DNA of 64,000 bases, taken from assembly GCF_023016805.1 (NCBI RefSeq), contig NZ_JALKCH010000002.1:124001-188000 (forward strand), read 5' to 3'. Shown here one piece after another: positions 38,059 to 54,674 of the stretch. The notes under the pieces were generated by a model. It saw only the letters and a list, made by a program, of their open reading frames with translations, was not told the origin of the DNA and made no database searches. This DNA is from Ancylobacter crimeensis (lineage in GTDB: Bacteria > Pseudomonadota > Alphaproteobacteria > Rhizobiales > Xanthobacteraceae). The stretch's first letter is position 1. Every line of letters starts with the position of its first letter. The position numbers were made by a program, and so were the translations under genes.

Positions 38059-38949
38059 ATGGACACACGGCATCTCGAAGCCTTCCGCGCGGTCTACGAG
38101 AACGGCTCGATGAGTGCGGCGGCGGCGGTGCTGAAGAAGTCGCAGCCGGCGATCAGCAATCTCATCGCCCGGCTGGAGGACGAGATCGGGCTGAAGCTGT
38201 TCCACCGCGCCCATGGCCGGCTGGAGCCGACCCAGGAGGCCGCCACCTTCTTCGCCGTCATCACCCGGACGCTCGACGCGATGGAGCGCACCCTCGCCGT
38301 GTCGCGCAACCTCCGGGGCCTGTCCTCGGCGACGCTGCAGATCGCCAGCCCGCCGGGCCTCGCCACCTATCTGCTGCCGCCCATCGTCTCGCAGGTGCTG
38401 ACCGAAAATCCCGGCGCGACCTGCCGCTTCATCACGCGCTCCTCCTATGCGGTGCGCGATCTCGGCGCGGTCGGCGCCTTCGATGTGGGCTTCGCCGAGC
38501 TGCCCATCGACATCCATGTCGCCTCGCTCGAACTGTTCGAGGTGGCCTGCATGTGCGTGATGCGCCCGGACCATCCGCTCGCCGCTGCGGACCGGGTGAC
38601 GCCGGCGCTGCTCGATTCCTCGCCCTTCGTCACGCTCTTCCCCGAGCACATCACCCATATCGCGGCGGCGGAGGCGTTCTTCGAGGCGGGGGTGCACTGG
38701 AACGTGGTCGCCGAGGTCGAGTTCTTCGGCACTGCCTGCATGCTGGTGCAGGAACTCGGCGCGGTGACGCTGGTGGACCCGGCGACCGCTCGCATCTTCA
38801 CGCGCTACGGGCTGGTGGCGCGGCCCTTCGAGCCCGCGGTACCCTACCGCTTCGGCATGTTCCGCCCCTCCACCCGCGCACCGGCGCGGATCGCGGTGGA
38901 GTTCATGGAGCGCTTCCGCCGCGCCATGGCCGGGCAGGGCGCGCGCTGA
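38059..38949 (+). CDS. LysR family transcriptional regulator
   Basis: LysR-type regulator of 296 aa: winged helix-turn-helix at the N-terminus (about 5-62, GSMSAAAAVLKKSQPAISNLIARLEDEIGLKLFHR) and a two-lobe inducer-binding domain (about 90-290, LQIASPPGLATYLLPPIVSQVL). ATG 38059 gives the standard distance from start to helix-turn-helix; an in-frame extension to 37963 has repeated low-complexity codons. It is oriented with, and 264 bases upstream of, the RidA and ABC transporter genes, and is the only regulator next to that catabolic cluster, so it is the best candidate to control it. The inducer is unknown. Confidence 0.9.
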   Translation: MDTRHLEAFRAVYENGSMSAAAAVLKKSQPAISNLIARLEDEIGLKLFHRAHGRLEPTQEAATFFAVITRTLDAMERTLAVSRNLRGLSSATLQIASPPGLATYLLPPIVSQVLTENPGATCRFITRSSYAVRDLGAVGAFDVGFAELPIDIHVASLELFEVACMCVMRPDHPLAAADRVTPALLDSSPFVTLFPEHITHIAAAEAFFEAGVHWNVVAEVEFFGTACMLVQELGAVTLVDPATARIFTRYGLVARPFEPAVPYRFGMFRPSTRAPARIAVEFMERFRRAMAGQGAR

Positions 38950-39213
38950 ACAGCGTTTCTGGTGCCATGGAACCGGTGCAGGCACGCCGCACAAATTTGA
39001 AGCAATCGAGAGTGCCGCCTACCCGCTTCACGCGCACTGTTTTTTCCGGTGCGGTGGGAAAGGGTGGTGACGACCGTGCGGGGTGGTCAGTCTATAACTT
39101 TGCTTTATGGATTTCCCTCTATTTCCGGTTTGACCGCGCCCGCGTTCCGGCGCGTGATCGGCGCCGGGATCGCCCCTGATCGGAGGTGGACCTGCGTTGT
39201 GAGGGAGTTGGAC

Positions 39214-39699
39214 ATGTCGGCGACGAGGCGGTTCGAGCAGCTTGGGATCACCCTGCCGGGCCGGGGCGGCGGGCCGGATTACTACGGCAAGCTCTACGGC
39301 AAGATGAAGCCGCATTATCTCAGCGACAAGCTGCTCTTCCTCTCCGGCCAGACCGCCGGCATCCGCGACGGGCGGGTGCTGTATCCCGGCCGGCTCGGCC
39401 GCGACGTGTCCATCGAAGAGGGCTACGAGGCCGCGCGCCTCACCGGGCTGAACTGCCTTGCCGCCATCGTCGATGCGGTGGGCGACCTCGACCGGGTGAA
39501 GGGGCTGGTCCGTTCGCTGAACTTCATTGCCTGCGCGCCGGACTTCACCGAGCCGCACAAGGTGGCGAGCGGCCTGACCGACCTGTTCGAGCAGGTCTTC
39601 GGCGAGGAGATCGGGGTCGGCGGGCGCGCCTCCATCGGCGTCATGTCGCTGGCCGACGATTACTGCTTCGAGACCTGGATGACCGTCGAGATTCACTGA
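39214..39699 (+). CDS. RidA (YjgF/YER057c/UK114) family protein
   Basis: Small trimeric-type RidA protein of 161 aa, with FLSGQTAGIRDGRVLYPGRLGRDVSIEEGYEAARLTGLNCLAAI and GGRASIGVMSLADD. It belongs to the longer variant with KLYGKMKPHYLS before the core, and it has R in the expected late strand only as GRASIGV, so deaminase competence is uncertain. RidA proteins hydrolyse reactive enamine/imine intermediates made by amino acid or amine metabolism. ATG 39214 has GAGGGAG seven bases upstream. It precedes the LIV-type ABC transporter and unusual catabolic genes, which suggests that an imine or enamine appears in that pathway. Confidence 0.88.
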   Translation: MSATRRFEQLGITLPGRGGGPDYYGKLYGKMKPHYLSDKLLFLSGQTAGIRDGRVLYPGRLGRDVSIEEGYEAARLTGLNCLAAIVDAVGDLDRVKGLVRSLNFIACAPDFTEPHKVASGLTDLFEQVFGEEIGVGGRASIGVMSLADDYCFETWMTVEIH

Positions 39700-39838
39700 C
39701 CGCGCCCGGCGCTCCCGCGCCGGCGTCACGTGCCTGCATCAAGGCGCCCGATCAGAGGCGCCGGCTTGCCTTCCACGATCCGGTTTCCGGCCGCCGCCGG
39801 CGCGCAGCCCGGCGAGCGACCTTCAGAGGGAGTTCACG

Positions 39839-40972
39839 ATGACGATCAAAGCCATCGCGGCGGCCGCCTTCGGGCTCGGCCTCGCGCTCGCGCCGCTGAC
39901 CGGGGCGAGCCCGGCCCGCGCCGAGGACATCACGATCGGCTTCACCGCCGCGCTGTCCGGCGATTTCGCCGCCTTCGGCCTCAACATGCGCAAGGGCCTC
40001 GACCTCGCGCTGAAGGAGCTGAACGCGAAGGGCGGCCCGGCCTATGCGATCGACGCGGTGGACGACCGTGGCGAAGCCCGCGAGGGCGTGCTGATCGCGC
40101 AGCGCTTCTGCTCCGACAGCAAGATCGACGTGGTGATGGGCTATTCCTTCTCCTCCATCGCCCTTGCCGCGGTGCCGGTGTTCGACCAGTGCAAGCTCCC
40201 CGTTCTCGCCTCGGCGGTGACCAGCCCGGCGCTGAGCAATGCCAGCCCCTATTTCCGCCGCAACGTGCTGACCGACGCGGTGCAGGGCGAGATGATGGGC
40301 ACCTATGCGGCGAAGACGCTGGGCCTCAAGAACATCTATGTGCTGAACCAGCAGGATGATTACGGCATCGGCGTCGCCAAGGCCTTCTCCGCGGCGGCCG
40401 GGAAGGACGGCGCCAAGATCGCCGGCTCGGAATCCTACATGCTCGGCACCAAGGATTTCCGCACCCTGCTGACCAAGGTGCGCGCGGCCCAGCCGGACGC
40501 CATCTTCATCGGCGGATTCTACACCGAGGCGGCCAAGATCGCCGAGCAGGCCCGCGGCCTCGGCATCAAGGCGCAGCTCCTGTCCACCGACGGCGCGCTC
40601 AATGTCGAGCTGATGAAGCTCGGCCGCAGCGCGGTCGAGGGCATGATCGTCTACGGCATGTTCGACCCCTCGGTCGCGACCCCGGCAACGGAGGCGTTCC
40701 TCAAGGCCTATCAGGCGGCCTATAACGAAGCGCCCAGCGCCTGGGCCGCGCTCGGCTACGACGCCGGCATGACGCTCGGCGCCGCGGTCGAGCTGGCCGG
40801 CAAGGGCGGGAAGGTCGATCGCGAGAGCCTCAACGCCGCCTTCGGCAAGCTCAAGGACGTGCCCGGCGTGACCGGCCCCACCACCTTCCTGCCCTCCGGC
40901 GACCGCAACGGTGCCTTGTATTTCCTCACCGTGAAGGACGGCAAATTCACCCTGGCGCCCAAGCAGCCCTGA
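39839..40972 (+). CDS. Branched-chain amino acid-type ABC transporter substrate-binding protein
   Basis: Leu/Ile/Val-binding-protein-fold receptor (Peripla_BP_6, 377 aa) with a Sec signal peptide ending in SPARAED. The first strand ITIGFTAALSGDFAAFGLNMRKGLDLALKE and the hinge NQQDDYGIGVAKAFSAAAG are typical. Members bind amino acids, amides, urea, aromatic acids or other small carboxylates, so the family name does not fix the ligand. It heads a transporter-enzyme cluster with a ureohydrolase-like protein, a Rieske oxygenase, a dehydrogenase and an amidohydrolase, and the ligand is probably their substrate. ATG 39839 follows GAGGGAG. Confidence 0.92.
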   Translation: MTIKAIAAAAFGLGLALAPLTGASPARAEDITIGFTAALSGDFAAFGLNMRKGLDLALKELNAKGGPAYAIDAVDDRGEAREGVLIAQRFCSDSKIDVVMGYSFSSIALAAVPVFDQCKLPVLASAVTSPALSNASPYFRRNVLTDAVQGEMMGTYAAKTLGLKNIYVLNQQDDYGIGVAKAFSAAAGKDGAKIAGSESYMLGTKDFRTLLTKVRAAQPDAIFIGGFYTEAAKIAEQARGLGIKAQLLSTDGALNVELMKLGRSAVEGMIVYGMFDPSVATPATEAFLKAYQAAYNEAPSAWAALGYDAGMTLGAAVELAGKGGKVDRESLNAAFGKLKDVPGVTGPTTFLPSGDRNGALYFLTVKDGKFTLAPKQP

Positions 40973-41434
40973 CGGGCGCCAGCGACGGCTGGCCGGCCGG
41001 GGACCCGGTGCGGCGATCGAACCGGCCCTTTCCTGCCCAGCCCAGTCGCGGGACAGGTGCCGGCCCTGGCGGTCCGATCCGGCTCCCCCTCGGACCGGGT
41101 CGGACCGCCGGTCGGTTTCACAAAAACGTCCTCCCGGTTCCTCCCCGCTCTTCGGGAGGGACTCCTTACTTCCTCTCCCCGTCGGGGAGAGGTGGCCTGC
41201 GCAGCAGGTCGGTAAGGGGCCGGGCGGCTGGGGAGTCATGGGGCGTTCCGGCCCCTCACCCTGACCCTCTCCCCGACGGGGAGAGGGAGACGATGCCGCC
41301 CGGGGACGGGTGGTGCGGTCTTTCCCTTCCGCGGGGCGGGGCAGACGATGCCGGATCAGGGGCCGGCGGCAGGTGACATCGTGGGACGGCACGCCGCCGC
41401 CCCATGGCAGGAACGGTCGAACGACAGGGTGGAC
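40973..41434. other. Intergenic region of 462 bases carrying an inverted pair of palindromic repeats
   Basis: Separates the binding-protein gene from the fused permease gene. It holds the inverted repeat pair annotated at 41172-41289 and otherwise GC-rich sequence without a credible gene. Open frames here on both strands are low-complexity Arg/Pro/Gly strings. Confidence 0.7.
41172..41289. repeat. Two inverted copies of a CCTCTCCCC-GTC-GGGGAGAGG element (BIME-like)
   Basis: Copy one is 41172-41220: palindrome CCTCTCCCCGTCGGGGAGAGG, then GTGGCCTGCGCAGCAGG and GTAAGGGGC. Copy two is 41251-41289 on the opposite strand with the same palindrome and GTGAGGGGC tail. The palindrome plus GAGGGGC tail is a dispersed intergenic element I recognise from many alpha- and betaproteobacterial genomes. 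The facing arrangement can fold into one large structure and may modulate expression between the binding protein and permease. Confidence 0.85.
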
Positions 41435-43489
41435 ATGGATTATTTCGGGCAGCTTCTGGCGAACGGACTCGTTCTCGGGGCGATCTATGCGCTGGCGGCG
41501 GTCGCCTTCACCCTCGTCTATGGCGTGGTGCGGCTGGTGAACTTCGCCTTCGGCGAGCTGTTCATGATCGGCGCCTTCCTCACCACCTCGCTGATGCTGG
41601 ACGAGGTCAGCCTGTTCGGGACGCCGGTGCCGATGCCGGGCCTGTCCTTCCCGCTCGCGGCGCTGCTCGCCATCGTCCTCACCGCCGGGCTCGGCGTGGT
41701 GGTGGATCGCATCGCCTACCGGCCGCTGCGCAAGGCGCCGCGGCTGGCCCCGCTCATCACCTCCATCGCGGTGTCGGTGGTGCTCCAGAGCCTCGCCCAG
41801 ACCATCTGGGGCGCCGAGGAGCTGCGCTTTCCCGAATTCAGCCTCGCCGCCTATCCCCCGGTGGTGCTGTTCGGCTCGATCTATCTCAGCGTGATGGATC
41901 TCGTGGTCATGGCGGCTGCCCTGCTCGCCATGATCGGGCTCACCCTGTTCGTGTCCCGCTCCAGCCTCGGCCGCGCCATGCGGGCGAGCGCGGAGGACCA
42001 GACCGCGGCGCTGCTGGTCGGCATCCCGGTCGACCGGGTCGTGGGCGCGGCCTTCGCCATCGGCTCGGGCTTTGCCGCGCTGGCGGGACTGCTCTATGCG
42101 CAGACCTATGGCTTCGCCCACGCCACCATGGGCTTCCTGCCCGGCCTCAAGGCGCTGACCGCCGCGGTGCTGGGCGGCATCGGCTCCACCCCCGGCGCGG
42201 CGCTGGGCGGGGTCGTGCTCGGCCTCGTCGAAGCGCTCGGCTCCGGCTACCTGCCGAACGGCTCGGCCTGGAAGGATGCCATCTCCTTCGTGCTGCTGGT
42301 CGGGCTGCTCTATGTGCGCCCACAGGGCCTGCTCGGCCGGCCGGAACTCAATTCCGCAGGGCGCGGCAGCCTGCTGGGCGGGGCGGTGGAGATGCAGGGC
42401 TGGCTGCGCGGCCTGTTCGGCCGGTTCGACCACGCGCTGGAAAAGAGCGCCGGCCATGGCGGCAAGGTCGCGCTCGCGGCGCTGGCGGCGGCGCTCGTCA
42501 TCGGCGCGCTGGTGCCCTCCGACTACTGGCTGCGCATCCTCACCACGGTCGTCATCTACGGCATGCTGGCCAGCGGGCTGAACGTCATCGTCGGCTTTGC
42601 CGGCCTGCTCGACCTCGGCTTCGTTGCCTTCTGGGCGGTGGGCTCCTACCTCACCTCGATCCTGTTCGTGCTGGTGCTGAAGGACGGCTTCGGCATCGCC
42701 CCGCAGGAGATGTGGTGGCTGTTCTATCTCAACCTGCCGCTCGGCGGGTTGCTGGCGGCGGGTTTCGCCGTGCTGCTCGGCACCCCGACCTTGCGGCTGC
42801 GCGGCGACTATCTCGCCATCATGACGCTCGGCTTCGGCGAGATCGTGCGCGTCGTCGCCATCAACTGGGTGGGGCTCACCAACGGGCCGATGGGCATTCG
42901 CGGCATCCCGCTGCCGGAGATCTTCGGCATCCCGCTCGCCTCCCCGCGCGTGCTCTTCTTCTTCGCGGTGGCGCTGGCGGGGGTGGTGCTGTTCCTTGTG
43001 GCGCGGCTGGTGCGCTCCTATGTCGGGCGCGCCTGGGTGGCGATCCGGGAAGACGAGGAGGCCGCCGAGGCGATGGGCGTGCCGACCGCGCGCTACAAGC
43101 TCTACGCCTATGCGACAAGCGGTTTCGTCGGCGGCTTCGTCGGCGTGTTTTATGCCCACTACCAGCAATATATCAGCCCGCTGAACTTCTCACTGTTCGA
43201 GAACATCATCCTGTTGATGCTCATCGTGCTCGGCGGCCTCGGAACCTTCATCGGGCCCTTCATCGGCGCGGTGATCTGGATCGTGTTCCTGCAGCTCGCC
43301 ATCGACATCCCCTTCGTGCAGGCCCACCCGGAAACCCGCTTCGCGCTGCTCGGGGTTATCCTCATCGCGCTGATGCTGTTCCGTCCGCAGGGGCTGGCGG
43401 CGAGCGCGCGGGTCGACCTCACCATGCGCGGAGCGCGGGCGAAGGAGGGGGCTTCGGACGAACCTCTCGGACGGAGGGCGCAGGCATGA
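41435..43489 (+). CDS. Fused LivH-LivM branched-chain amino acid-type ABC permease
   Basis: One chain of 684 aa containing both inner-membrane permeases. Residues about 1-305 are LivH-like (NGLVLGAIYALAAVAFTLVYGVVRLVNFAFGELFM; SAEDQTAALLVGIPVDRV; LGGIGSTPGAALGG). A linker of about 45 residues with GRFDHALEKSAGHGGK joins residues about 355-670, which are LivM-like (GLNVIVGFAGLLDLGFVAFWAVGSY; IREDEEAAEAMGVPTARYKLYAYATSGFVGG). Usually these are two genes. The continuous frame with no internal start at the junction supports a real fusion. ATG 41435 is chosen; the upstream open frame is not coding. The stop overlaps the LivG start (ATGA). Confidence 0.93.
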   Translation: MDYFGQLLANGLVLGAIYALAAVAFTLVYGVVRLVNFAFGELFMIGAFLTTSLMLDEVSLFGTPVPMPGLSFPLAALLAIVLTAGLGVVVDRIAYRPLRKAPRLAPLITSIAVSVVLQSLAQTIWGAEELRFPEFSLAAYPPVVLFGSIYLSVMDLVVMAAALLAMIGLTLFVSRSSLGRAMRASAEDQTAALLVGIPVDRVVGAAFAIGSGFAALAGLLYAQTYGFAHATMGFLPGLKALTAAVLGGIGSTPGAALGGVVLGLVEALGSGYLPNGSAWKDAISFVLLVGLLYVRPQGLLGRPELNSAGRGSLLGGAVEMQGWLRGLFGRFDHALEKSAGHGGKVALAALAAALVIGALVPSDYWLRILTTVVIYGMLASGLNVIVGFAGLLDLGFVAFWAVGSYLTSILFVLVLKDGFGIAPQEMWWLFYLNLPLGGLLAAGFAVLLGTPTLRLRGDYLAIMTLGFGEIVRVVAINWVGLTNGPMGIRGIPLPEIFGIPLASPRVLFFFAVALAGVVLFLVARLVRSYVGRAWVAIREDEEAAEAMGVPTARYKLYAYATSGFVGGFVGVFYAHYQQYISPLNFSLFENIILLMLIVLGGLGTFIGPFIGAVIWIVFLQLAIDIPFVQAHPETRFALLGVILIALMLFRPQGLAASARVDLTMRGARAKEGASDEPLGRRAQA

Positions 43490-44291
43490 TCACACGCACG
43501 GCAAGCGCTGCCCGCGCGGTGGCGGTCGGTGGCCCCATCCTCGCCGCGGAAGGGCTCAGGGTCCGCTTCGGCGGGCTGGAGGCGATCGGCGGACTCGATC
43601 TCGCGGTGGCGCGCGGGGCCATCCACGGGCTGATCGGGCCGAACGGGGCGGGCAAGACCACGGTGCTGAACGCGCTCACCGGGTTCGTGCGCCCCAGCGC
43701 CGGGCGCCTCACCTTCGACGGCGTGGAGACCGCGGGCAAGGGCGTCGCCGAAATCGCCAGCCTGGGTCTGGCGCGCACCTTCCAGAACATCCGGCTGTTC
43801 GGCGCCATGACGGTGCTGGAGAGCGTGCTGGTCGGCGCGCATCGCCGATTCCACGCCGGTCCGCTGGCCCTCGTCTTCGGGGCCCGCAAGGCCAGGGAGG
43901 CGGAGCGTGCGGCCATTGCCGAGGCGGCCGAGCTGCTCGATTTCGTCGGACTCGGCCCCGAGGTGGCGGCCCGGGTGGCGACGACGCTGTCCTATGGCCA
44001 CCAGCGGCGTGTGGAAATCGCCCGCGCCCTGATGAGCCGGCCGAAGCTGCTGCTGCTCGACGAGCCGCTGGCGGGGATGAACGCGGTCGAGAAGGTCGAG
44101 ATCGCCGACCTCGTCCGGCAGGTGCGGGAGCGGGGCATCAGCGTGCTGCTGATCGAGCACGACATGGCGGTGATGCGCGCGCTCTGCGACCGGCTGACGG
44201 TTCTGGAGTACGGCAAGCGCCTCGCCGATGGCGACCCGGAGGCGGTGCTCGCCGACCCTGCCGTGCAGGCTGCCTATCTGGGGAGGGCGCG

Positions 44292-44295
<4 letters not shown>
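43486..44295 (+). CDS. livG: LivG-type ABC transporter ATP-binding protein
   Basis: ATPase of 269 aa. Walker A GPNGAGKTT, Q-loop TFQNIRLF, signature LSYGHQRRVEIARAL, Walker B LLLLDEPLAGMN and switch His in LIEHDMAVM. The Y in LSYG and the C-terminal tail ADPAVQAAYLG are LivG hallmarks. Starts with ATG overlapping the permease stop and ends with ATGA into livF. The frame is open for about 2 kb upstream inside the permease gene, but that is an out-of-phase artefact of GC-rich codon use. Confidence 0.95.
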
Positions 44296-45055
<760 letters not shown>

Positions 45056-45059
<4 letters not shown>

Positions 45060-46033
45060 TGGATTCCTCCGACACCGAGAGCCGCCCGCTCATGAGGCGC
45101 GGCACCTTTCTCGGGGTGCCGCCGGCCAGCGCCGCCCAGCCGGGCCAGATCGCCGTGCTGGGACTTCCCTTCGACTGCGGCACCCACGCCACCCGGATCG
45201 GCTCGCGGCAGGGCCCGGCGTCGTTCCGCGCCATGTCGAGCGAGGTGCGGCCCTTCTATCCGCCGCTGGCCGACATCGATCCGCGCGCCGGCAACCGGGT
45301 GGTCGATCTCGGCGACGTGGATGTGGTGGCTTCCGCCATCGGTCCCTCTCTGGCAGCGATGGAGCACGCCGTTCTCGACATCGTGCGGGCCGATGCGGTG
45401 CCGCTCTGCGTGGGTGGCGACGGCACGGTGACGCTTCCGGTTCTGCGAGCGTTGTCAAAGCGTTATCCGGAGCTGGTGCTGGTCCATATCGATGCCCACA
45501 CCGACGCCTATCCGGGCGAGGACGTGAACACCGGCACGACCTTCACCCGCGCCGCCGCCGAGGGACTGATCGACACGCGCCGCTCCTTCCACATCGGTGC
45601 GCGCGGCACCATGCCGGTGGGCGGGGCGTATGACCACACGCGCGCGCTCGGCTACCGGCTGATCAGCGGAGATGACGTGCGCCGCCGCGGGCCTGCCGCC
45701 ATCGCCGCCGAGGTGCGCGAGGTCGTCGGCAATCGGCCTGTGCACCTGTCCTTCGACATGGATTATTTCGACCCATCCGCCGCGCCCGGCGTCGCCACCC
45801 CGACCTGGGGCGGCCCGCAGGTGGCGGAGGTGTTCGACCTGCTGCATGGCCTCAGGGGCCTTGATCTCGTCGGCGTCGACATCAACACGTTGAGTCCGCC
45901 GCACGACGTGCAGGGCATGGCGGCGATGCTCGCCGGCCATGTCGCCGTCATCGCTCTTCATCTCGTCCAGCTCGGCCAGGCGGAACATCGCCTCAATGCC
46001 GGCCATCGCCAGAACGGAGGAACGCGTCCATGA
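45056..46033 (+). CDS. Ureohydrolase (agmatinase/arginase) family protein with altered active site
   Basis: Arginase-fold protein of 325 aa. The second and third manganese motifs are intact: HIDAHTD (D146, H148, D150) and SFDMDYFDP (D234, D236). The first motif, normally G-G-D-H-S, is GGDGTVT, so the metal-ligand His is Gly123. The guanidinium-binding Glu of the late motif (normally D-x-x-E-x-x-P) is replaced in VDINTLSPPHD by Thr. Hydrolysis of agmatine or arginine is therefore doubtful, and a different substrate or a one-metal site is possible. ATG 45056 overlaps the livF stop; ATG 45059 is the next codon. It lies between the ATPases and a Rieske oxygenase in the same coupled operon. Confidence 0.88.
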
Positions 46034-47181
46034 GCTCGTCCGCAACCACGCTCGTTCCGGAACCCTATGTGTGGACCGAGCCGCCGCTCGGCGACGCCAA
46101 GAGCGCTCCGACCAGCTTCTACACCGACCCCGAGGTCTTTCGCGCGGAGATCGAGCACATCCATCTCAAGACCTGGTTCTTCGCCGGGCGGGTCGAGGAG
46201 GTGGCGAGCCCCGGCGACTACAAGGCGCTCGGGACGGTCGGAGGTCCCGCGCTGCTGGTGCGCGGCGAGGACGGCGTGCTGCGCGCCTTCGCCAATGTGT
46301 GCCGGCACCGCGCCTCCATCCTGCTGGAAGGCTGCGGGCATGCCAGCAACATCATCTGCCCTTACCATGCCTGGAACTACCGCCTCGACGGCACCCTTGC
46401 GGGCGCGCCCGGCATGCGCGAGGTGCCGAAATTCGAAAAGCCCCCGCACGGCCTCATCCCGATCCGCATGGAGGTCTGGGAAGGCAACATCTTCCTGAAC
46501 TATGACGAGGACGCGCCTGATCTGACGACCCATCTCGGCAACATGCCGGATCTGGTGGGCAGCCATCGGATGGGCGACATGGTGCGCACCTGGCACATCG
46601 AGATCGAGACGAAATGCAACTGGAAGTTGCTTCTCGAAAACGCCATGGAGACCTACCACACCGGCATCGTCCACGCTGCTACCGTCGGTGCCCAGCGTTC
46701 CGTGAGCTTTCCGACCAGCGGGGAATGGCATTGCATCCAGGTGCAGTCGAACCGTTCCATCGCGGTGCTGGGCCAGGAGCCGCCCTTCCCGGTGATCGAG
46801 GGGTTGTCCGAACAGTCGCGCAAGGGCACCTATTTCACGGTGGTCGAGCCAACCACCCAGTTCGCGCTGGCGCAGGACTGCATGTGGTGGCTGGCGGTCC
46901 GGCCGGTCGCGGTGGACCGCTCCGTGCTCTCCGTGGGTGGCTGCTTCCCGGAGTCCTACACCCGGGTGCCGGATTTCGAAGCGCGTGCCGAGCCCTATTA
47001 CAAGCGGTGGGAGGCGGTGGCGCTGGAGGATGTCGGCATCCTCGAGAAGCAGCAGGTCGGCCTTTCCTCCCTGCTGGCGCGTCCGGGGCCGCTGTCCTGG
47101 CGCGACGACATGGTGCTGGCCATGAACCGCTGGGTAATGGCGCATCTGCCAGCCCATATCGTCGATCGGATGGGTGCATGA
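46030..47181 (+). CDS. Rieske non-heme iron oxygenase, alpha subunit
   Basis: Ring-hydroxylating-type oxygenase of 383 aa. The Rieske [2Fe-2S] ligands are C91, H93 (CRHRAS), C110 and H113 (CPYHAWNY). The mononuclear iron site is NAMETYHTGIVH with H210 and H215, and D334 as likely third ligand. The bridging residue between the two centres is Glu207, not the Asp of naphthalene dioxygenase; Glu here is known from carnitine monooxygenase CntA and relatives acting on quaternary amines. No ferredoxin or reductase gene is nearby, so electrons must come from elsewhere. It overlaps the ureohydrolase-like stop and the dehydrogenase start by four bases each. Confidence 0.92.
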   Translation: MSSSATTLVPEPYVWTEPPLGDAKSAPTSFYTDPEVFRAEIEHIHLKTWFFAGRVEEVASPGDYKALGTVGGPALLVRGEDGVLRAFANVCRHRASILLEGCGHASNIICPYHAWNYRLDGTLAGAPGMREVPKFEKPPHGLIPIRMEVWEGNIFLNYDEDAPDLTTHLGNMPDLVGSHRMGDMVRTWHIEIETKCNWKLLLENAMETYHTGIVHAATVGAQRSVSFPTSGEWHCIQVQSNRSIAVLGQEPPFPVIEGLSEQSRKGTYFTVVEPTTQFALAQDCMWWLAVRPVAVDRSVLSVGGCFPESYTRVPDFEARAEPYYKRWEAVALEDVGILEKQQVGLSSLLARPGPLSWRDDMVLAMNRWVMAHLPAHIVDRMGA

Positions 47182-48170
47182 TGCGCGTCCTGCTGACCCA
47201 CAACCGCGATCTGCTGAAGCATTTCTATGGCTACCGCGCGGTGGATGAACTCAAGAAGCTGCCAATCGAGCTCGTCATGAACGACAGCGACGAGCCGCTG
47301 GTGGGCGACGCGCTGGTGAGGGCGGCGGAAGGCTGCGAGGTCGTCATTTCCGACCGCCTCGCCGCAGGGCCGCGCGCGGTGATGTCGAAACTGCGGGGGG
47401 TGAAGCTCTTCACCCGCTGTGCCGTCGACATGCGCAACATTGATGTCGACGCGGCCTCGGAGGCCGGCATCCTCGTCTGCAATTGCGGATCGGGTTATGC
47501 CGATGCGGTGGGCGAGCACGCGCTGGCGCTGATGCTGGATCTCGCACGGAACATCACGCGCGACGCCGAGCGCTACCACGCCGGAGACGACGCGCATCCC
47601 ATGGTGTTCGGCCGGCAGCTTGCCGGCGCCCATGTCGGGGTGATCGGCTATGGCTCGATCGGCCGGCGCATCGTCGATCTCGCCATCGCCTTCCGCATGA
47701 AGGTGTCGGTCCATGACCCCTATGCGCGAATCGACCACGGCGCAGTGGATGCGGTCGATCTGGACACGGTTCTCGCGACGCCCGATTTCGTGGTTTGCGC
47801 CGCCTATGCGACGCCGCAGACGGAGCGGATGATGAACGCCTCCGCCTTCGCCCGAATGCGCCGGGACGCTTTCTTCATCAACATCTCGCGCGGCATATTA
47901 GTGGACGAGGCGGCATTGGAGCACGCGCTGGTCACGGGCGAGATCGCTGGAGCCGGCCTCGATGTCGGTGACGGTCGGGACCAGCAGCCCTCGCTACGGC
48001 TGGCGCGCCTGCCGAACGTCGTCGCCACCCCGCACTCGGCCGCGCTGATGATCGAACCGTCCGAGTTCCAAGCACTGGAGACGGTGGAGCAGGTCAAGGC
48101 GATGCTGGAAGGCCGCCTGCCGATCCACGCCAAGAACCCGCATCGTATCGGCGGGCGGGTGGCAGCATGA
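47178..48170 (+). CDS. D-isomer-specific 2-hydroxyacid dehydrogenase family protein
   Basis: NAD-dependent dehydrogenase fold of 330 aa. The nucleotide site is VGVIGYGSIGRR (G157-G162), the substrate Arg is R238 (INISRGILVDE) and the catalytic His is H286 (ATPHSAA). The Glu that normally pairs with this His, in a D-V-F-x-x-E-P stretch, is missing: the sequence is LDVGDGRDQQP with Asp265/Asp268 nearby. Activity may therefore be altered or depend on Asp. It probably reduces or oxidises a 2-oxo/2-hydroxy acid intermediate of the pathway encoded around it. ATG 47178 overlaps the Rieske stop; ATG 47181 follows directly. Confidence 0.9.
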   Translation: MMRVLLTHNRDLLKHFYGYRAVDELKKLPIELVMNDSDEPLVGDALVRAAEGCEVVISDRLAAGPRAVMSKLRGVKLFTRCAVDMRNIDVDAASEAGILVCNCGSGYADAVGEHALALMLDLARNITRDAERYHAGDDAHPMVFGRQLAGAHVGVIGYGSIGRRIVDLAIAFRMKVSVHDPYARIDHGAVDAVDLDTVLATPDFVVCAAYATPQTERMMNASAFARMRRDAFFINISRGILVDEAALEHALVTGEIAGAGLDVGDGRDQQPSLRLARLPNVVATPHSAALMIEPSEFQALETVEQVKAMLEGRLPIHAKNPHRIGGRVAA

Positions 48171-49033
48171 GCGGGCTGATGCCGGACCGGTCGCCGGTCT
48201 TCCGCATGCCGCCGGGAGCCTGCGACTGCCACATGCACGCCTATGGCCCGTCGGACCGCTATCCGCCGGCGCCGGATTCGCCGTTCCCGCCGGTCGCGGG
48301 CGGCGACATCGAGAGCTACCGGCGTGCGCGCGACCGGCTCGGGCTGGCGCGCGCCGTGGTCGTGCAGCCTTCGGTCTACGGCTTCGACAACCGCGCGACG
48401 CTCGATGCCATGGCGGCGCTGGGGGAGGGCGCGCGCGGCGTCGCCGTGGTGCCGCCGGAGGTGAGCGAGGACGAGCTCGATCGGCTGACGAAGCTCGGCG
48501 TGCGTAGCATCCGTTTCTTCATGATCGGCGGCGGGGCGCTCGGATGGGACGCTCTGGAGACGCTGGCCGCGAAGACCGCCGCCTTCGGCTGGCACGTGCA
48601 GATGCAGATGGATGGCCGCCTGCTGCACGAGGCCGAACACCGGCTGGCGGCGCTGCCGGGCGGGCTGGTGATCGACCACAACGGCAAGTTTCTTGAGCCG
48701 GTCGGCACCGATCATCCCGGCTTTGCCGCCTTGTTGCGGTTGATCGAGGCGGGGCGCACCTTCGTGAAGACCTCCGGTGTCTACGAGACCTCGCGCCTCG
48801 GGCCGCCGGATTATGCCGACGTGGCACGGCTCGCCCGCACCCTGATCGCAGAAGCGCCCGAACGCTGCCTGTTCGCGACCAACTGGCCGCATCCCTCCAA
48901 GCCCGGAAACCCGCCCGACGACGCGCAACTGGTCGATCTATTTGCAGAGTGGTGCGGTGGCGGGGAGGTTGCCCGTCGCATCCTCGTCGACAATCCCGAG
49001 GAGGTCTACGGTTTCCCGAAGGCGGGCGCCTGA
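48167..49033 (+). CDS. Amidohydrolase-2 family hydrolase (2-pyrone-4,6-dicarboxylate lactonase-like)
   Basis: TIM-barrel hydrolase of 288 aa of the LigI/cog3618 group, which open lactone rings, often without metal. The H-x-H motif is H22/H24 (CDCHMHAYG) and H171 lies in VIDHNGKF. The strand-8 position, Asp in LigI (G-T-D-W-P-H), is Asn239 in FATNWPHP; Asn also occurs in some relatives as far as I recall. This last gene of the coupled operon suggests a lactone or cyclic amide intermediate. The next gene, regA, is convergent with no space between. Confidence 0.9.
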   Translation: MSGLMPDRSPVFRMPPGACDCHMHAYGPSDRYPPAPDSPFPPVAGGDIESYRRARDRLGLARAVVVQPSVYGFDNRATLDAMAALGEGARGVAVVPPEVSEDELDRLTKLGVRSIRFFMIGGGALGWDALETLAAKTAAFGWHVQMQMDGRLLHEAEHRLAALPGGLVIDHNGKFLEPVGTDHPGFAALLRLIEAGRTFVKTSGVYETSRLGPPDYADVARLARTLIAEAPERCLFATNWPHPSKPGNPPDDAQLVDLFAEWCGGGEVARRILVDNPEEVYGFPKAGA

Positions 49034-49567
49034 TCAGGGCACCTGCTTCTTTTCCAGCTTGCGCGCCAGTGTGCGCCGGTGCATGCCCAACCGGCGCGCG
49101 GCCTCGGAGATGTTGAAGTCCGTCTCTACCAGCGTCTCGTGGATCCGCTCCCATTCGAGGTTCTTAAGCGACGTCGGGCGTCCGGCCAGCGCGATGGAGG
49201 TGTCGCCCTCTTCGGCTCGGCCGAAGGCGGCCTCGATATCGTCGGTGTTGGCCGGCTTGGCGAGATAGTGCAGCGCTCCGAGCTTAATCGCCTCGACCGC
49301 GGTGGCGATGCTGGCGAAGCCGGTGAGGACGACGATCTTCGTCGCCGGGTCGTGCTCATGAAGCAGCTTCACGCATTCGAGCCCGGAACTGCCGGCGAGC
49401 TTGAGATCGACCACGGCATGGTCGGGCGTGACCTCGTCCAGCACCGCCCTGACGCCATCGAGCCCGTCGCTCACCCGCACGCCATAGCCGCGGCGCTCGA
49501 AGGAGCGGCGCAGGGCCTTGGCGAAGGCGGCATCGTCCTCGACGATCAGCAGAAGGGAGTCAGGCAT
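49034..49567 (-). CDS. regA: Redox response regulator RegA/ActR/PrrA
   Basis: Response regulator of 177 aa with receiver domain (acidic pocket E10-D11-D12, phosphoacceptor D54 in VVDLKLAGSSG, T82, K104) and a C-terminal Fis-type helix-turn-helix (ISEAARRLGMHRRTLARKLEKK). This short form is characteristic of the RegA group, which controls respiration, nitrogen and carbon fixation genes in response to redox. Its ATG 49567 overlaps the end of the RegB gene by eight bases. The usual targets include terminal oxidases, such as the cyo operon immediately upstream on the same strand. Confidence 0.95.
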   Translation of the reverse strand: MPDSLLLIVEDDAAFAKALRRSFERRGYGVRVSDGLDGVRAVLDEVTPDHAVVDLKLAGSSGLECVKLLHEHDPATKIVVLTGFASIATAVEAIKLGALHYLAKPANTDDIEAAFGRAEEGDTSIALAGRPTSLKNLEWERIHETLVETDFNISEAARRLGMHRRTLARKLEKKQVP

Positions 49568-50855
49568 GGGTCTCCTCGGGCGAAAGCGAGGCCAGCGGCA
49601 GGGAGATGATGACGCTCGCGCCGCGCGGCTCGTTGAGCGGCACGACCGTTCCTCCCAGCTTGCGGACCACATTGACGACGAGGAACAGGCCGAGTCCGCC
49701 GCCGGGCCGGTTCTTCGTCGAACGATAGGGTGAGCCGAATTCTTCCAGAATCTGCGGGGCAAATCCCGGCCCGTGATCCCGCACCGTTATCACGATCATG
49801 TCGGAGCGTGGTGCGGCCTGTCGTTCCACCGAGATGCCGACCCAGCCTGGCGATGCTTCCAGCGCGTTGTCGAACACATTGAACAGCACCTGCTTCAGGG
49901 CGGGATCTGAGATGATGACCTCATCCGAGTCCGGCCCGCGATAGGCGAGGGCGGCCGGCGAGCGGCTGACCTTCCATTCCGCAACGAGTTCGTCGAAGAA
50001 GTCGCCGAGCGAGGTTCGCAGCGTGCCCTCGCCACGCGCCTCGCCGGACGACATCAGGATGCCGGAGACGATCGCCTTGCAGCGGCCGATCTGGTTCTGC
50101 ATCTCGGCGAGGTCGTCCGCCAGCTCGGCGTCCGCCGCGATGGCGCGCAGCCGCCGCCAGTCGTTCAGGATGACCGAAATGGTCGCAAGGGGCGTGCCGA
50201 GCTCATGGGCGGCGCCGGAGGCCAGCAGGCCGAGCCGGACGATGTGGTCTTCCTCCGCCGCGCGTTGGCGAAGCGCCGCGAGATGCGCATCGCGCGCCCT
50301 CAGGTTCCGGCTGATCTGGTGTATGAAGGCCACCAGCAGGCTCGCCGCCAGCACGAAGCAGACGAACATGCCGGTGATGTGCAGTTGCAGCAGTGGTCCG
50401 TGGTGGGGATCGGGTACGGCAAGCGGGCGATAGACCGTGGCCAGCAGCACGAAACAGGCGCTGGCGATGGCGACCAGGATCCACGCCCCCCATCCCTCCA
50501 GAAGCACGGCGCCGAGGCTGACCTGCAGAAGATAGAGCGTGATGAAGGGATTGGTCGCGCCGCCGCTGAGATAAAGCTGGATGGTGAGGGCGGTAACGTC
50601 GAGCAGCAGTTCAAGGAAGATTTCCGCTTGGTTCACCGGGGTCGACCGGCGCCCGCGGAACTGGCTGGCGAGGTTGAGCACCACGAGGAACGCCACCACC
50701 CCGATCATGTCCTGCAGCGGCAGTTCGATCCCCATCCAGGAGTGGACGATGAAAATCGTGACGATCTGCCCGAGCACCGCCAGCCAGCGGAGCTGGATCA
50801 GCAGCGTCAGATTGTCGGCATCGGCGGCTTCCGGCGGCGGCAGGGTTCGAGGCAT
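49560..50855 (-). CDS. regB: Redox sensor histidine kinase RegB/ActS/PrrB
   Basis: Membrane kinase of 431 aa with six helices between residues about 20 and 185. The conserved quinone-sensing heptapeptide GGATNPF is at 98-104. The phosphoacceptor is H217 in the H-box GAAHELGTPLATISV, and the redox-active Cys is C259 (QIGRCKAIVSG), both in the positions known from Rhodobacter RegB. Kinase N, G1 and G2 boxes follow (NVFDNALEAS, DHGPGF, GGGLGLFL). ATG 50855 is chosen as it starts just before the first helix. It phosphorylates RegA, encoded next. Confidence 0.95.
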   Translation of the reverse strand: MPRTLPPPEAADADNLTLLIQLRWLAVLGQIVTIFIVHSWMGIELPLQDMIGVVAFLVVLNLASQFRGRRSTPVNQAEIFLELLLDVTALTIQLYLSGGATNPFITLYLLQVSLGAVLLEGWGAWILVAIASACFVLLATVYRPLAVPDPHHGPLLQLHITGMFVCFVLAASLLVAFIHQISRNLRARDAHLAALRQRAAEEDHIVRLGLLASGAAHELGTPLATISVILNDWRRLRAIAADAELADDLAEMQNQIGRCKAIVSGILMSSGEARGEGTLRTSLGDFFDELVAEWKVSRSPAALAYRGPDSDEVIISDPALKQVLFNVFDNALEASPGWVGISVERQAAPRSDMIVITVRDHGPGFAPQILEEFGSPYRSTKNRPGGGLGLFLVVNVVRKLGGTVVPLNEPRGASVIISLPLASLSPEETHA

Positions 50856-50866
50856 CGACTCATGCT

Positions 50867-51622
50867 CTAGGGGCGGCGAAGCGCGTAGAACGCTCCGGCA
50901 GCCACCATGCCCGCGAGGGCGAACCATGTCAGCGCATAGACGAGGTGATTGTTGGGAAAGTGGATGACGGTGAGCCCACCGCGCGGCCAGCCTCCGGGAT
51001 TCGGCGTGGCGTCCGCGTCGATGAAATAGGGGGCCACGGATTGGAGGCCTCGCGCCGTTGCGATCGCCGTGACGTCGCGTGAATACCAGCGGTCCGCGGC
51101 GGGATCGTTGCTGCGCAGGAAGCCGCCTCCGGGTTCGGTGAGACGCAGCAGGCCGGTGATGCGAACCGCGCCCGCCGGCAGGCCTTCGGCGCGCGCATCG
51201 GCATTGCGCCGGTCGGCCGGCACGAAGCCGCGATTCACCAGCACGGTGAAGCCCTCATCGGTCACGAAGGGCGTGACGACCCAGAAGCCGCCGCCGAGAT
51301 CGGTGACGGCCTGGACCAGCGTCTCGCGGTCGTTGAGGAAGTGGCCGGCCGCCGTGCTGCGGCGGTACTCGTCGCGGGCGGCGCTCACCTCCGGCCAGTC
51401 CGCCGGACCGGGGAAGGGCCGGGCCTCGCCGTTCACGCGGGCCTCGACGCGGGCGATGAGGTCGAGCTTCCACGCCCGGCGAATGACCTGCCAACTGCCG
51501 AGGGCCAGCAGCACCGCGACGAGACACGTCGCCACAAGTGCGAGGACGATACGGAAGCGGGGTGAACGCGGCGCCGCTGCAGCGTCGAGGTTCACCCCAT
51601 CCGGTTGGTCAGCGGGACGCAT
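50867..51622 (-). CDS. SURF1 family cytochrome oxidase assembly protein
   Basis: Assembly factor of 251 aa with two terminal membrane helices (IVLALVATCLVAVLLALGSWQV and LVYALTWFALAGMVAAGAFYAL) around a periplasmic loop, the SURF1 layout. Family motifs include LGSWQVIRRAWKLDLI, VTPFVTDEGFTVLVNRGFVP and NNHLVYALTWF. It helps insert heme into subunit I of heme-copper oxidases. Here it lies between cyoD and regB on the same strand, so it probably serves the cyo bo3-type oxidase. Confidence 0.93.
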   Translation of the reverse strand: MRPADQPDGVNLDAAAAPRSPRFRIVLALVATCLVAVLLALGSWQVIRRAWKLDLIARVEARVNGEARPFPGPADWPEVSAARDEYRRSTAAGHFLNDRETLVQAVTDLGGGFWVVTPFVTDEGFTVLVNRGFVPADRRNADARAEGLPAGAVRITGLLRLTEPGGGFLRSNDPAADRWYSRDVTAIATARGLQSVAPYFIDADATPNPGGWPRGGLTVIHFPNNHLVYALTWFALAGMVAAGAFYALRRP

Positions 51623-51643
51623 CGGCGCCCCGCGCAGGCTGGA

Positions 51644-52045
51644 TCATGGAGTGTCGCTCGGCATGCTTTCCATGTCGTGCTGGCCGGGCATCATGTTGGC
51701 ATTCATGTGGTACATGACCCACAGCGAACCGGTCAGCGTGATGACCACCAGGATGATGGTGAAGATCATCGCCAGCATGCTCCACCCGCCTTCCGACCGG
51801 AAGTTCATGTGGAGGAAGAAGATCATGTGCACGACGATCTGCACCGCCGCGAACACCATGATGGTGATCGCGGTGACGGTGGCGCTCTCGATCGGACGCG
51901 CCATCACCAGCCAGAACGGAATGGCGGTAAGGATGACCGAGAGGATGAAGCCGGTCAGGTAGCTGCCGAACGTGCCGTGGGCGTGGCCGTCGTCATGCCC
52001 GTGATGGTCATGGCCGTGGGTGTGGGCGTGGCCGTTCGCGCTCAT
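51644..52045 (-). CDS. cyoD: Cytochrome o ubiquinol oxidase subunit IV
   Basis: Small membrane subunit of 133 aa with three helices ([68 protein letters not shown]). The N-terminal tail is a His/Gly/Asp-rich string ([19 protein letters not shown]), longer than in E. coli CyoD and able in principle to bind metal. ATG 52045 overlaps the stop of cyoC by four bases. Confidence 0.94.
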
Positions 52046-52668
52046 CGCAGCATTCCCATCAGATAGACGAAGGTGAACACGCCGATCCAGATCACGTCGA
52101 GGAAGTGCCAGAACATCGAGAGGCACATCAGCCGACGGCGATTGGCAGTGATGAGGCCATGCCGCGCCACCTGCACCATCAGCGTGATCAGCCAGATGAT
52201 GCCGAAGGTGACGTGCAGGCCGTGGGTGCCGACCAGCGTGAAGAAGGAGGAGAGGAAGGCGCTGCGCTGCGGCGTCGCACCTTCCGCGATCATGTGGTGG
52301 AACTCGTAGAGTTCGATGAACAGGAACGCGGCACCGAACAGGCCGGTGACGACCAGCCAGAACTGGGTCGCGGACACCCGGTCTTTCTCCATCGCCAGCA
52401 TGGCGAAGCCATAGGTGATGGAGGAGAGCAGCAGCATGGTGGTGTTCACCGCCACCAGCGTGAGATCGAACAGATCCTTCGGTCCGGGCCCCGCCGCATA
52501 GTTCCTGCCCAGAACGCCGTAGACGGCGAACAGGCAGGCGAAGATGAGGCAGTCGCTCATCAGGTAGATCCAGAACCCCAGCGACGTGCTGTGGCCCTCG
52601 GGATGCGCGTGCTCCTCGACTTCGTAGAAGACGGGTGAGTCGCTCGCCTGTGTCGTCGCCGTGCTCAT
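52042..52668 (-). CDS. cyoC: Cytochrome o ubiquinol oxidase subunit III
   Basis: Five-helix heme-copper oxidase subunit III of 208 aa. Landmarks are [53 protein letters not shown] and [23 protein letters not shown] 52668 overlaps the end of cyoB by four bases, and its stop overlaps the start of cyoD, so the subunits are translationally coupled. Confidence 0.95.
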
Positions 52669-54674
52669 GCCTGCACCTTGCCGGCCAGCTGACGGGTGCG
52701 CTCGCTCTCGGTGCGGGCGACCACGTCGGCCGGGATGAAGAAGTCGCGGTGATAGTTGAAGGTGTGGCCGATCGCCGTCGCCAGCAGGGTCACGAAGCTC
52801 AGCGCCGCCAGCCACCAGATGTACCAGATCATGGCGAAGCCGAAGGTGATCGCGATGCCGGCAAGGATGATGCCGGTGCCGGTGTTGCTCGGCATGTGGA
52901 TCGGCCGGAAGCCTTCCAGCGGACGCTTGTAGCCGCGCGCCTTCATGTCCCACCAGGCGTCATTGTCGTGAACGACCGGCGTGAAGGCGAAGTTGTAGTC
53001 CGGCGGCGGGGAGGAGGTCGCCCATTCCAGGGTGCGGCCGTCCCACGGGTCGCCGGTCACGTCGCGCAGCTTGTCGCGCTGCAGGATGCTGATCGCGATC
53101 TGGATCAGGAAGCAGCCGATGCCGAGCGCGATGAGGAACGCGCCGAAGGCCGCAATGATGAACCAGATATGCAGCGAGGGGTCGTCGAACACGCGCAGGC
53201 GGCGGGTGACGCCCATCAGGCCGAGCACATAGAGCGGCATGAAGGCGAAGTAGAAGCCGACCACCCAGAACCAGAACGAGCACTTGCCCCAGAACTCGTT
53301 GAGTCGGAAGCCGAATGCCTTCGGGAACCAGTAGGAGATGCCGGCGAACAGGCCGAACACCACGCCGCCGATGATCACGTTATGGAAATGCGCGATCAGG
53401 AACAGCGAGTTGTGCAGCACGAAGTCGGCGGGAGGTACCGCGAGCATCACGCCGGTCATGCCGCCGATGACGAAGGTCAGCATGAAGGCGATGGTCCACA
53501 TCATCGGGAGCTCGAAGCGGATGCGGCCGCGATACATCGTGAATAGCCAGTTGAACATCTTCGCGCCCGTCGGGATCGAGATGATCATCGTGGTGATGCC
53601 GAAGAACGAGTTGACGCTCGCGCCCGAGCCCATGGTGAAGAAGTGGTGCAGCCACACGAGGTATGACAGGATGGTGATGACCACCGTGGCGTAGACCATC
53701 GAGGTGTAGCCGAACAGCTTCTTGCCGGAGAAGGTCGAGGTGACTTCGGAGAAGATTCCGAAGATCGGCAGGATCAGGATGTAGACCTCCGGGTGGCCCC
53801 AGATCCAGATCAGGTTCACGTACATCATCGGGTTGCCCCCGAAGTCGTTCGTGAAGAAGTTGGTGCCGACATAGCGGTCCAGGCTGAGCAGGGCGAGAAC
53901 GGCGGTCAGCACCGGGAAGGCCGCGACGATCAGCACATTGGTGCAGAGCGCGGTCCAGGTGAAGACCGGCATCTTCATCATGGTCATGCCAGGGGCGCGC
54001 ATCTTGACGATCGTGCAGATCAGGTTGACGCCCGACAGCAAGGTGCCCACGCCGGCGATCTGCAATGCCCAGATGTAGTAGTCCATACCTGGATCCGGGC
54101 TATATGCAATGCCGGACAGCGGGGGATAGGCCAGCCAGCCAGTGCGGGCGAACTCGCCGACGAACAGCGACATCATCACCAGCACGGCGCCGGCGACCGT
54201 CATCCAGAAGCTGAAATTGTTGAGGAAGGGGAAGGAGACGTCGCGCGCGCCGATCTGCAGCGGCACCACGAAGTTCATCAGACCCGTGACCAGCGGCATG
54301 GCCACGAAGAAGATCATGATGACGCCGTGGGCGGTGAAGACCTGGTCGTAATGGTGCGCGGGAAGGTAGCCTTCCGAGCCATTGAAGGCGAGAGCCTGTT
54401 GGAGGCGCATCATGACCGCGTCGGCGAAGCCGCGCAGCAGCATGATGATGCCCAGCACCATGTACATGATGCCGATCTTCTTGTGGTCCACGCTGGTGAA
54501 CCACTCCTTCCAGAGATAGCCCCAGAGCCGGAAATAGGTGAGCGCGCCCAACACCACCAGACCGCCGAGGCAGACCGCGGCGAAGGTGGCGACGAGGATC
54601 GGCTCGTGAAGCGGCAGGGCGCCGAGCGTCAGGCGCCCGAAGATGGCGCTTGTGGGAACGGGATATTCGGTCAT
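52665..54674 (-). CDS. cyoB: Cytochrome o ubiquinol oxidase subunit I
   Basis: Catalytic heme-copper subunit of 669 aa that reduces oxygen and pumps protons. Visible ligands and channel residues: low-spin heme His in [11 protein letters not shown], CuB ligand His and cross-linked Tyr in [12 protein letters not shown], the CuB His pair in WLHHFFTMG, and the two heme His in [11 protein letters not shown]. The extra helices at both ends compared with aa3 oxidases are typical of quinol-oxidising CyoB. ATG 54674 is chosen from the MTEYPVPTS start; upstream open frame is non-coding. Confidence 0.97.

Follow-up and report, generated by a model that had tools for sequence, protein, structure and literature searches.

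The cluster and the question it raises

Which compound is taken up and degraded by the products of ten plus-strand genes at positions 38059-49033 of a 64,000-nucleotide stretch of Ancylobacter crimeensis DNA (contig NZ_JALKCH010000002.1, positions 124,001 to 188,000; hereafter the window, from a genome of 4.3 Mb) is the question addressed here. According to open reading frame (ORF) calls and Pfam matches, the genes encode a LysR-type regulator (LysR), a Rid-family protein, the importer proteins LivK, LivHM, LivG and LivF, a ureohydrolase-like protein (UH), a Rieske oxygenase, a D-2-hydroxyacid-dehydrogenase-like protein (HADH) and a LigI-like amidohydrolase (Table 1). A preliminary description had read them as a transporter-linked catabolic operon with altered enzymes, and all ten genes were indeed found where it placed them. 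As judged by comparison with related loci, the cluster is conserved as a unit, promoter architecture included, and the relatives consistently share its altered active sites. The best explanation, to which we give about even odds, is that LysR controls an operon for the breakdown of a non-aromatic, amino-acid-like nitrogen compound that enters through the operon's own LIV-type importer.

All ten reading frames are intact, and the seven genes from LivHM to the LigI-like protein are joined by six four-base overlaps, every junction reading ATGA; the preliminary description had recognised these overlaps but counted six genes. We infer from the sequence that the cluster genes are co-transcribed. A binding protein, two permease domains and two ATPases are encoded together, as in importers of the LIV/HAAT type.

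Table 1. Features of the cluster, in coordinates of the window
Feature	Position	Strand	Basis and remarks
LysR-type regulator (LysR)	38059..38949	+	PF00126 + PF03466; present in 16/25 clusters, 72-87% identity
Candidate LysR-type binding site ATAA-N7-TTAT (T-N11-A palindrome)	39094..39108	+	sole match in 64 kb
-35-like TTGACC	39130..39135	+	first base 29 bp past centre of LysR site
Rid-family protein (RidA)	39214..39699	+	PF14588, 51.1 bits
LivK, periplasmic substrate-binding protein	39839..40972	+	PF13458, 202 bits
Palindrome CTCTCCCCG(T/A)CGGGGAGAG, two copies, LivK-LivHM gap	41173..41285	.	six exact sites genome-wide
LivHM, fused permease	41435..43489	+	two BPD_transp_2 stretches
LivG ATPase	43486..44295	+	ABC_tran + BCA_ABC_TP_C; ATGA overlap
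LivF ATPase	44292..45059	+	ABC_tran; ATGA overlap
UH, ureohydrolase fold with GGDG, TGTTF and D-x-N-T motifs	45056..46033	+	PF00491, 219 bits
Rieske oxygenase, group-V-like	46030..47181	+	PF00355 + PF00848
HADH, D-2-hydroxyacid dehydrogenase-like NAD enzyme, LDVG...D[QE].P replacing E-P motif	47178..48170	+	PF02826, 158 bits
LigI-like/GLI-like amidohydrolase with ATNWPHP	48167..49033	+	PF04909 (Amidohydro_2), 145 bits

Conservation of the gene set

A scan with an alignment of the Rieske protein against one genome per species (84,980 species), using the peptides ENAMETY and AQDC[MIA]WW, yielded 69 loci (fetched loci are numbered L, genomes of a sample of the order G). At 23 of them, genes for UH, HADH, the LigI-like protein and the four importer proteins accompany the Rieske gene in one stretch; together with L038 of genome G045 and the Caballeronia plasmid pNK83 (L033) this gives 25 other loci with UH, Rieske, HADH, LigI-like and importer genes, L039 being excluded since it is apparently the same genome as L072. 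The ten-gene order of the window recurs in 15 of the 25, namely eleven named Ancylobacter, two further Xanthobacteraceae, L038 and a Rhodospirillaceae metagenome-assembled genome (MAG; L069) whose livK reads as two pieces, and Acetobacter garciniae (L114) lacks only Rid from the set. The order LivKHMGF-UH-HADH-LigI-Rid-Rieske is found in four loci (Rhizobium, Bradyrhizobiaceae and Rhodobacteraceae MAGs and Marivibrio halodurans), and LivHMGFK-Rieske-HADH-LigI in five Caballeronia, with Rid and UH a few genes off. Two Hydrogenophaga have the importer and the Rieske gene, with no UH, HADH or LigI-like gene in the fetched stretch, and in the flanks, partly short, of the remaining 44 loci none of these three was matched at E<=1e-10. 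For 16 of those 44 the neighbours of the Rieske gene, inspected by eye, are mixed and give no substrate clue, including housekeeping genes (L079, L104), importers (L083, L095) and genes of amide-hydrolysing types (L077, L087, L090).

Among the 297 genomes of the order sample, which include that of the window, the LigI-like protein was matched at E<=1e-60 in 32 genomes, UH at E<=1e-70 in 15 and the Rieske protein at E<=1e-70 in 13, the UH and Rieske matches spanning several families; both are at least 80% identical only in the window's genome, G045 and G077, the last marked as the same genus as the host. The conserved co-occurrence that the preliminary description had proposed to look for is thus borne out by the 25 other loci, and on this comparative evidence the ten genes are one conserved unit, associated more than by chance and shared whole or rearranged with distant bacteria.

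Phylogenetic trees were built without 11 near-duplicate Ancylobacter, Xanthobacteraceae and Caballeronia loci and without matches below 38-40% identity or 80% coverage; the residue counts given below likewise omit matches under 38-40% identity, and L054-L056 are absent from both. The cluster HADH form one clade of 16 rows (100/100) and the cluster LigI-like proteins another of 16 rows (100/99), each including L040, which carries only this pair. The UH of alpha-proteobacterial clusters also form one clade (12 rows, 100/100; 9 rows, 100/99 in a second tree), outside which the Caballeronia UH make up a separate lineage. Similarly, the Rieske proteins of L092, L097, L099 and L101 nest in a 29-row clade (100/100), away from the group of the window's Rieske protein, and the other 25 members of that clade come from loci without the cluster. 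The same functional slot, for the Rieske protein as for UH, is therefore filled from two lineages, which argues that the activities are needed together.

In L040 (L040:11908-13772, genome G004) the HADH and LigI-like proteins are 75-78% identical to those of the window, and, by eye, Amidohydro_2-like genes, a small gene resembling a Rieske ferredoxin and a different LIV importer lie downstream of the pair.

A candidate LysR-type promoter ahead of ridA

The gap between the LysR gene and ridA holds ATAACTTTGCTTTAT, a palindrome of the T-N11-A form that is typical of LysR-type sites. Its pattern ATAA-N7-TTAT has one match in the 64 kb window, against 0.028 expected by composition, and occurs in 23 of 24 related loci either inside the stretch that separates LysR from its target or 2-4 bases over the edge of that stretch (L035, L101, L114); L167, the remaining locus, has no such site, and L070 has one additional site elsewhere. 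Over the 500,021 bases of these 24 loci there are 24 matches, compared with 0-1 for each of seven control patterns, and the arms are constant while the middle seven bases vary (e.g. L063, L069). TTGAC starts exactly 29 bp from the centre of the site in 15/15 aligned rows (the window and 14 loci) and does so too in L038, L039, L114, L160 and L161, that is, in 20/20 with a close LysR, the window included; where LysR is only 32-42% identical (L035, L175, L099, L101) the palindrome is kept and TTGAC is not at 29 bp.

The window resembles LysR-type promoters with A-T-A-x-N7-x'-T-A-T sites in that its T-N11-A palindrome lies some 65 bp ahead of where transcription is expected to start, with a -35 element beside it, and differs in that the inner pair of its site is A/T. 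Sigma-70 and terminator scans gave nothing above shuffles, and a search of the window's genome for further sites with up to two mismatches to the 18-base form gave none. Although the related loci are not independent, the base-exact spacing across gaps of unequal length argues strongly that a promoter driven by LysR precedes ridA.

This LysR site, with TTGAC at 29 bp, is also present in L160 (G207) and L161 (G294), where a LysR 54-55% identical to that of the window accompanies UH and what appears by eye to be a polyamine-type ABC importer, with no Rieske, HADH or LigI-like gene within the 20 kb fetched. Because the same promoter precedes these operons of importer and UH, UH is likely an active enzyme acting on an imported compound, and such a minimal operon could reveal the substrate of UH more easily.

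The binding protein and the Rid protein

The closest solved structures to LivK are 4gnr, 3td9, 4mlc and 3ipc. Its residues S106, T128, Y175, Y228 and D251 are kept in 26-27 of 27 relatives, and at these positions an amino acid is presumably held in LivJ and Atu2422; an amino-acid-like ligand is our best guess from these residues.

The Rid protein has four matches in the Protein Data Bank (PDB), two of them PA0814 and ACIAD3089. Both are Rid1 proteins, and the imine deaminase activity of RidA and Rid1-3 needs an Arg equivalent to RidA Arg105 (PMC4433059, PMC5619798). The window protein has Arg at this position (R139), which is conserved together with E160 in 24/24 relatives (counted for R139 among those at least 50% identical), so that the imine intermediate predicted in the preliminary description from the presence of Rid is supported.

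Active sites of UH and the Rieske oxygenase

UH shares with guanidinobutyrase and agmatinase the PF00491 fold family and the D-A-H-T-D and D-M-D metal motifs, its closest solved structure being guanidinobutyrase 3nio, and yet it scores 124.5 against an agmatinase cut-off of 174.3. Aligned to these enzymes, UH has Gly (G123) for the MnA His, Thr (T159) for the catalytic His and Thr (T278) for the Glu that binds guanidinium. G123, N277 and T278 are invariant in the 25 clusters and in 21/21 other relatives, and T159 is found in 25/25 clusters, the position being variable and never His in the 21 others. Five of the six metal ligands of Mn ureohydrolases acting on guanidines (PMC8125230) are present, the missing His being G123 in 46/46 relatives with the remaining metal residues kept. 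In E. coli agmatinase (EcAGM), MnA is the weak metal, and its removal leaves almost half of the activity, whereas exchange of the catalytic residues is more severe, H163F retaining 3-5% and E274A 1-2% (E. coli numbering; PMC8125230). UH probably works, to judge from these conserved residues, though not on guanidines.

Relatives of UH occur in other surroundings as well. In L162, L163 and L164 (G092, G004, G055) UH is seen by eye in conserved order with genes for a distant gamma-glutamyltransferase (GGT)-family protein, ketopantoate-reductase-like, M24-like and Asp/Glu-racemase-like proteins and a NitT/Tau-type importer, and in L172 (G511) a UH relative lies near several Rieske-related genes (32-36% identity) and SDR- and CoA-transferase-like genes.

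The Rieske oxygenase is closest to CntA among solved structures (6y9c/6y8j), and its closest solved and curated relatives are CntA and GbcA, not ring hydroxylators. It resembles these group V enzymes in overall sequence, Rieske ligands, facial His pair and bridging Glu, the last (CntA E205, here E207) being kept in 25/25 clusters and 42/43 others, but it reaches 140 bits against a GbcA cut-off of 670 and differs in having Ala where CntA has Y203, Thr-x-x-Thr and no linked reductase. CntA position 203 is aromatic in group Va, where it holds the ammonium group, and Asn in group Vb (PMC7948474); the corresponding A205 is Ala in 25/25 clusters and 41/43 others. The C-X-X-C pair, a feature of some group V Rieske oxygenases (PMC10952381), is absent, with T208 and T211 in its place in all 25 clusters.

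A Rieske relative (58%) in L087:9938-12089 is followed, by eye, by an N-formylglutamate amidohydrolase-like gene. Since a Rieske protein is paired with N-formylglutamate deformylase in homarine breakdown, this relative may, by analogy, point to a homarine-type route.

The HADH and LigI-like pair

D-2-hydroxyacid dehydrogenases use a catalytic set of Arg, Glu and His. HADH shares with the phosphoglycerate dehydrogenase type the NAD domain and the catalytic Arg and His, and differs in having D-[QE]-x-P in place of the E-P motif, and its scores for the 22 NCBIfam models that it matches all fall short of their cut-offs. R238, D268 and H286 are found in 25/25 clusters and 13/13 others, and in all 38 Asp and then Gln or Glu stand 18 and 17 positions before the His. 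When HADH is aligned without gaps to 1wwk, the catalytic Glu falls on R267, while the invariant D268 stands 18 before the His.

The closest solved structure to the LigI-like protein is 4mup, which we take to be galactarolactone isomerase (GLI), followed by LigI. H22, H24 and H171 are present in 40/40 sequences. At the position of LigI Asp248, the general base of that enzyme (Asp in 4d8l), the window protein has N239, and Asn is found there in the 25 clusters, in 12/15 other relatives and also in 4mup; the LigI-like proteins of L036, L037, L041 and L042 have Asn too. The HxH motif, the third His and TNWPH are common to the window protein and 4mup; what distinguishes it from both GLI and LigI is its linkage to HADH and a LIV importer, and from LigI in addition the Asn for Asp. 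Because this exchange recurs in 4mup, the LigI-like protein may, by analogy, isomerise a lactone rather than hydrolyse it. That galactarolactone isomerase exists and catalyses this reaction is confirmed in a review (PMC6353982).

Partner genes outside the core

A GGT-family gene, an Ntn amidase by family, adjoins 20/25 clusters as well as the two Hydrogenophaga loci. It is absent beside the window cluster and beside L058 (where the contig ends), L069, L099, L101 and L114, and the window's genome has a homologue at 244995-246560 of another contig, C21, that is 71-72% identical to the Ancylobacter gene. This partner resembles 5hft, presumably the oxamate amidohydrolase HpxW, with 2nlz scoring higher in the PDB search. 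An identity as HpxW acting on oxamate was considered and set aside, being singled out neither by that search nor by the literature searched.

In Caballeronia there are, in addition, genes for a class III aminotransferase and for another Rid protein, and in L092 an acyl-CoA ligase-like gene follows the cluster. In both Hydrogenophaga (L078 and L080) an aldehyde-dehydrogenase (ALDH)-like gene, 78% identical between the two, lies directly after the Rieske gene, where the others have HADH and the LigI-like gene.

Proposed route and competing explanations

We postulate that LysR sits on ATAA-N7-TTAT near -65 and, once it has its ligand, would switch on ridA-livKHMGF-UH-Rieske-HADH-LigI, the LIV-type importer bringing the compound into the cell. 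UH, probably with a single metal at an MnB-type site and in many relatives together with the GGT-family amidase, would cleave a C-N bond; the Rieske oxygenase, supplied by an unlinked reductase, would hydroxylate the skeleton to give a carbonyl and an imine, the latter to be deaminated by the Rid protein. HADH would then oxidise a hydroxyl, of a hydroxy acid or a cyclic hemiacetal, and the GLI-like protein would isomerise or open the resulting lactone, although the C-N cleavage, hydroxylation and lactone steps may follow another order. The Hydrogenophaga ALDH-like gene in place of HADH and the LigI-like gene fits such an oxidation and lactone step. A more specific version, which we regard as possible but rather doubtful, is a new pathway of re-tooled enzymes for one amino-acid-like compound, with a one-metal, non-guanidine UH, a Rieske oxygenase acting on a substrate other than a quaternary ammonium compound, lactone formation by HADH followed by isomerisation or opening by the GLI-like protein, and a LysR switch that also governs operons with UH only.

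Several observations weigh against an operon dedicated to an amino-acid-like nitrogen compound. UH is without the equivalents of both H163 and E274 and one metal ligand, so it may catalyse something else or nothing. The HADH and LigI-like pair stands beside an annotated TRAP importer and a LacI regulator in L036 and L037 and is also found in L041, L042 and L044-L048, with HADH occurring without the LigI-like protein elsewhere, and the pair may serve a general organic-acid task. The roles of the LivK residues are carried over from other amino-acid binders, the counts for Rieske A205, E207 and T208 result in part from selection by the scan peptides ENAMETY and AQDC[MIA]WW, no reductase gene is among the ten, and the group of the window's Rieske protein is joined only weakly with Caballeronia and Hydrogenophaga (89/56). 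Caballeronia NK8 has HADH and the LigI-like protein and, farther off, an aldehyde dehydrogenase 33% identical to that of Hydrogenophaga. Finally, the regulators differ among clusters (LysR; GntR in Caballeronia; GntR/FadR-like by eye in L092 and L097), so that the inducer may differ too.

The kinship of the Rieske protein to CntA and GbcA, with the bridging Glu E207 kept, raises the alternative that the cluster is a variant of quaternary-ammonium (betaine- or carnitine-type) breakdown, in which the Rieske protein would demethylate or cleave a betaine and the other enzymes oxidise the product. By eye, one Rieske relative has a ProU-like importer as its neighbour (L083) and another a GbcA-like Rieske with a GlxA-type regulator (L086), and the ALDH-like gene that adjoins the Hydrogenophaga Rieske gene would suit the aldehyde that CntA produces (PMC10952381). 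In contrast, the position of Y203 is Ala, neither the aromatic residue of group Va nor the Asn of group Vb, both Cys of C-X-X-C are Thr, and no dimethylglycine or sarcosine oxidase or reductase gene is among the ten. We also know of no role for UH, the GLI-like protein or HADH in betaine routes, and we consider this explanation unlikely. Marginally less probable still is the breakdown of a cyclic ureide or hydantoin-like compound, whose ring would be hydroxylated by the Rieske protein, its alpha-hydroxy amide oxidised by HADH, the ring opened by the LigI-like protein, the ureido group removed by UH and an oxamate-like amide hydrolysed by the GGT-family enzyme. A neutral ureido group might allow the loss of the guanidinium-binding Glu in UH, a Bosea relative of UH is accompanied by AtzE-family amidase, creatininase-family and polysaccharide-deacetylase genes, the Rieske relative of L090 lies by eye near hydantoinase/oxoprolinase-like genes, and the acyl-CoA ligase-like gene of L092 and the resemblance of the GGT-family partner to 5hft (HpxW, as we assume) would fit as well. 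However, 5hft is outscored by 2nlz, LivK resembles an amino-acid binder, the UH relative in Bosea has no more than 50% identity and belongs to another operon type, and there is no hydantoinase among the ten genes.

The preliminary description had suggested a possible new route for a nitrogen-containing aromatic or cyclic compound. An aromatic substrate, for which the Rieske oxygenase and the kinship to LigI, by which the ring product of a lignin aromatic is opened, might speak, now appears highly improbable, given that no ring-cleavage dioxygenase, ferredoxin or beta subunit is among the ten genes, that the Rieske protein is nearest the carnitine and glycine-betaine enzymes CntA and GbcA, that LivK keeps the residues of an amino-acid binder and that the genes nearby in Caballeronia and Hydrogenophaga are of amidase, aminotransferase and aldehyde dehydrogenase types. 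Least probable of all is that the enzymes are degenerate or moonlighting and the cluster a relic, as the loss of several textbook catalytic residues could imply, because the altered residues are invariant in 25/25 clusters and, except for UH T159 and LigI-like N239, also in the other UH and HADH relatives counted, the window frames are intact and the promoter spacing is base-exact in 20 loci, the window included. The deviations that the preliminary description had noted in UH, HADH and the LigI-like protein are real, then, but "altered" should be reworded, since residues that are nearly or fully invariant in relatives look like re-tooling and not decay. A pantothenate route, suggested by an amidase, a 2-hydroxy-acid dehydrogenase, a lactonase and the class III aminotransferase of Caballeronia, was dropped because it leaves the Rieske protein and UH unexplained.

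Other features of the locus

LivK and LivHM are separated by 462 bases in the window, and by about 47 (L092) up to several hundred bases (L059, L061, L062) in other loci. The window gap contains the palindrome CTCTCCCCGNCGGGGAGAG twice (41173-41191 and 41267-41285), two of only six exact sites in the whole genome, which looks like a small repeated element. The idea that they account for the length of the gap was dropped, the gap being long in several Ancylobacter loci too. A match to the Rfam family mir-1420 at 41057-41118 lies below threshold (31.2 against 70 bits) and is taken as chance in a GC-rich stretch. Immediately past the cluster, on the minus strand at 49034-54854, RegA/RegB-like response regulator and sensor kinase genes are followed by cytochrome oxidase genes (by eye).

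Significance

In the open-licence full-text literature, which leaves most subscription journals outside, no described pathway with this gene set was found, in agreement with the preliminary description. The parts belong to known families, and they include conserved enzyme groups without assigned function. Among uncharacterised catabolic operons, of which there are many, this one lends itself unusually well to testing, having a dedicated binding protein with which the substrate could be captured, a precise candidate promoter and named carriers (Ancylobacter species, Caballeronia and Marivibrio halodurans). Solving it would assign functions to conserved enzyme groups in which key residues of the nearest named relatives are missing, most of all to the GGDG ureohydrolase group, which is also found in other importer operons of Alphaproteobacteria.

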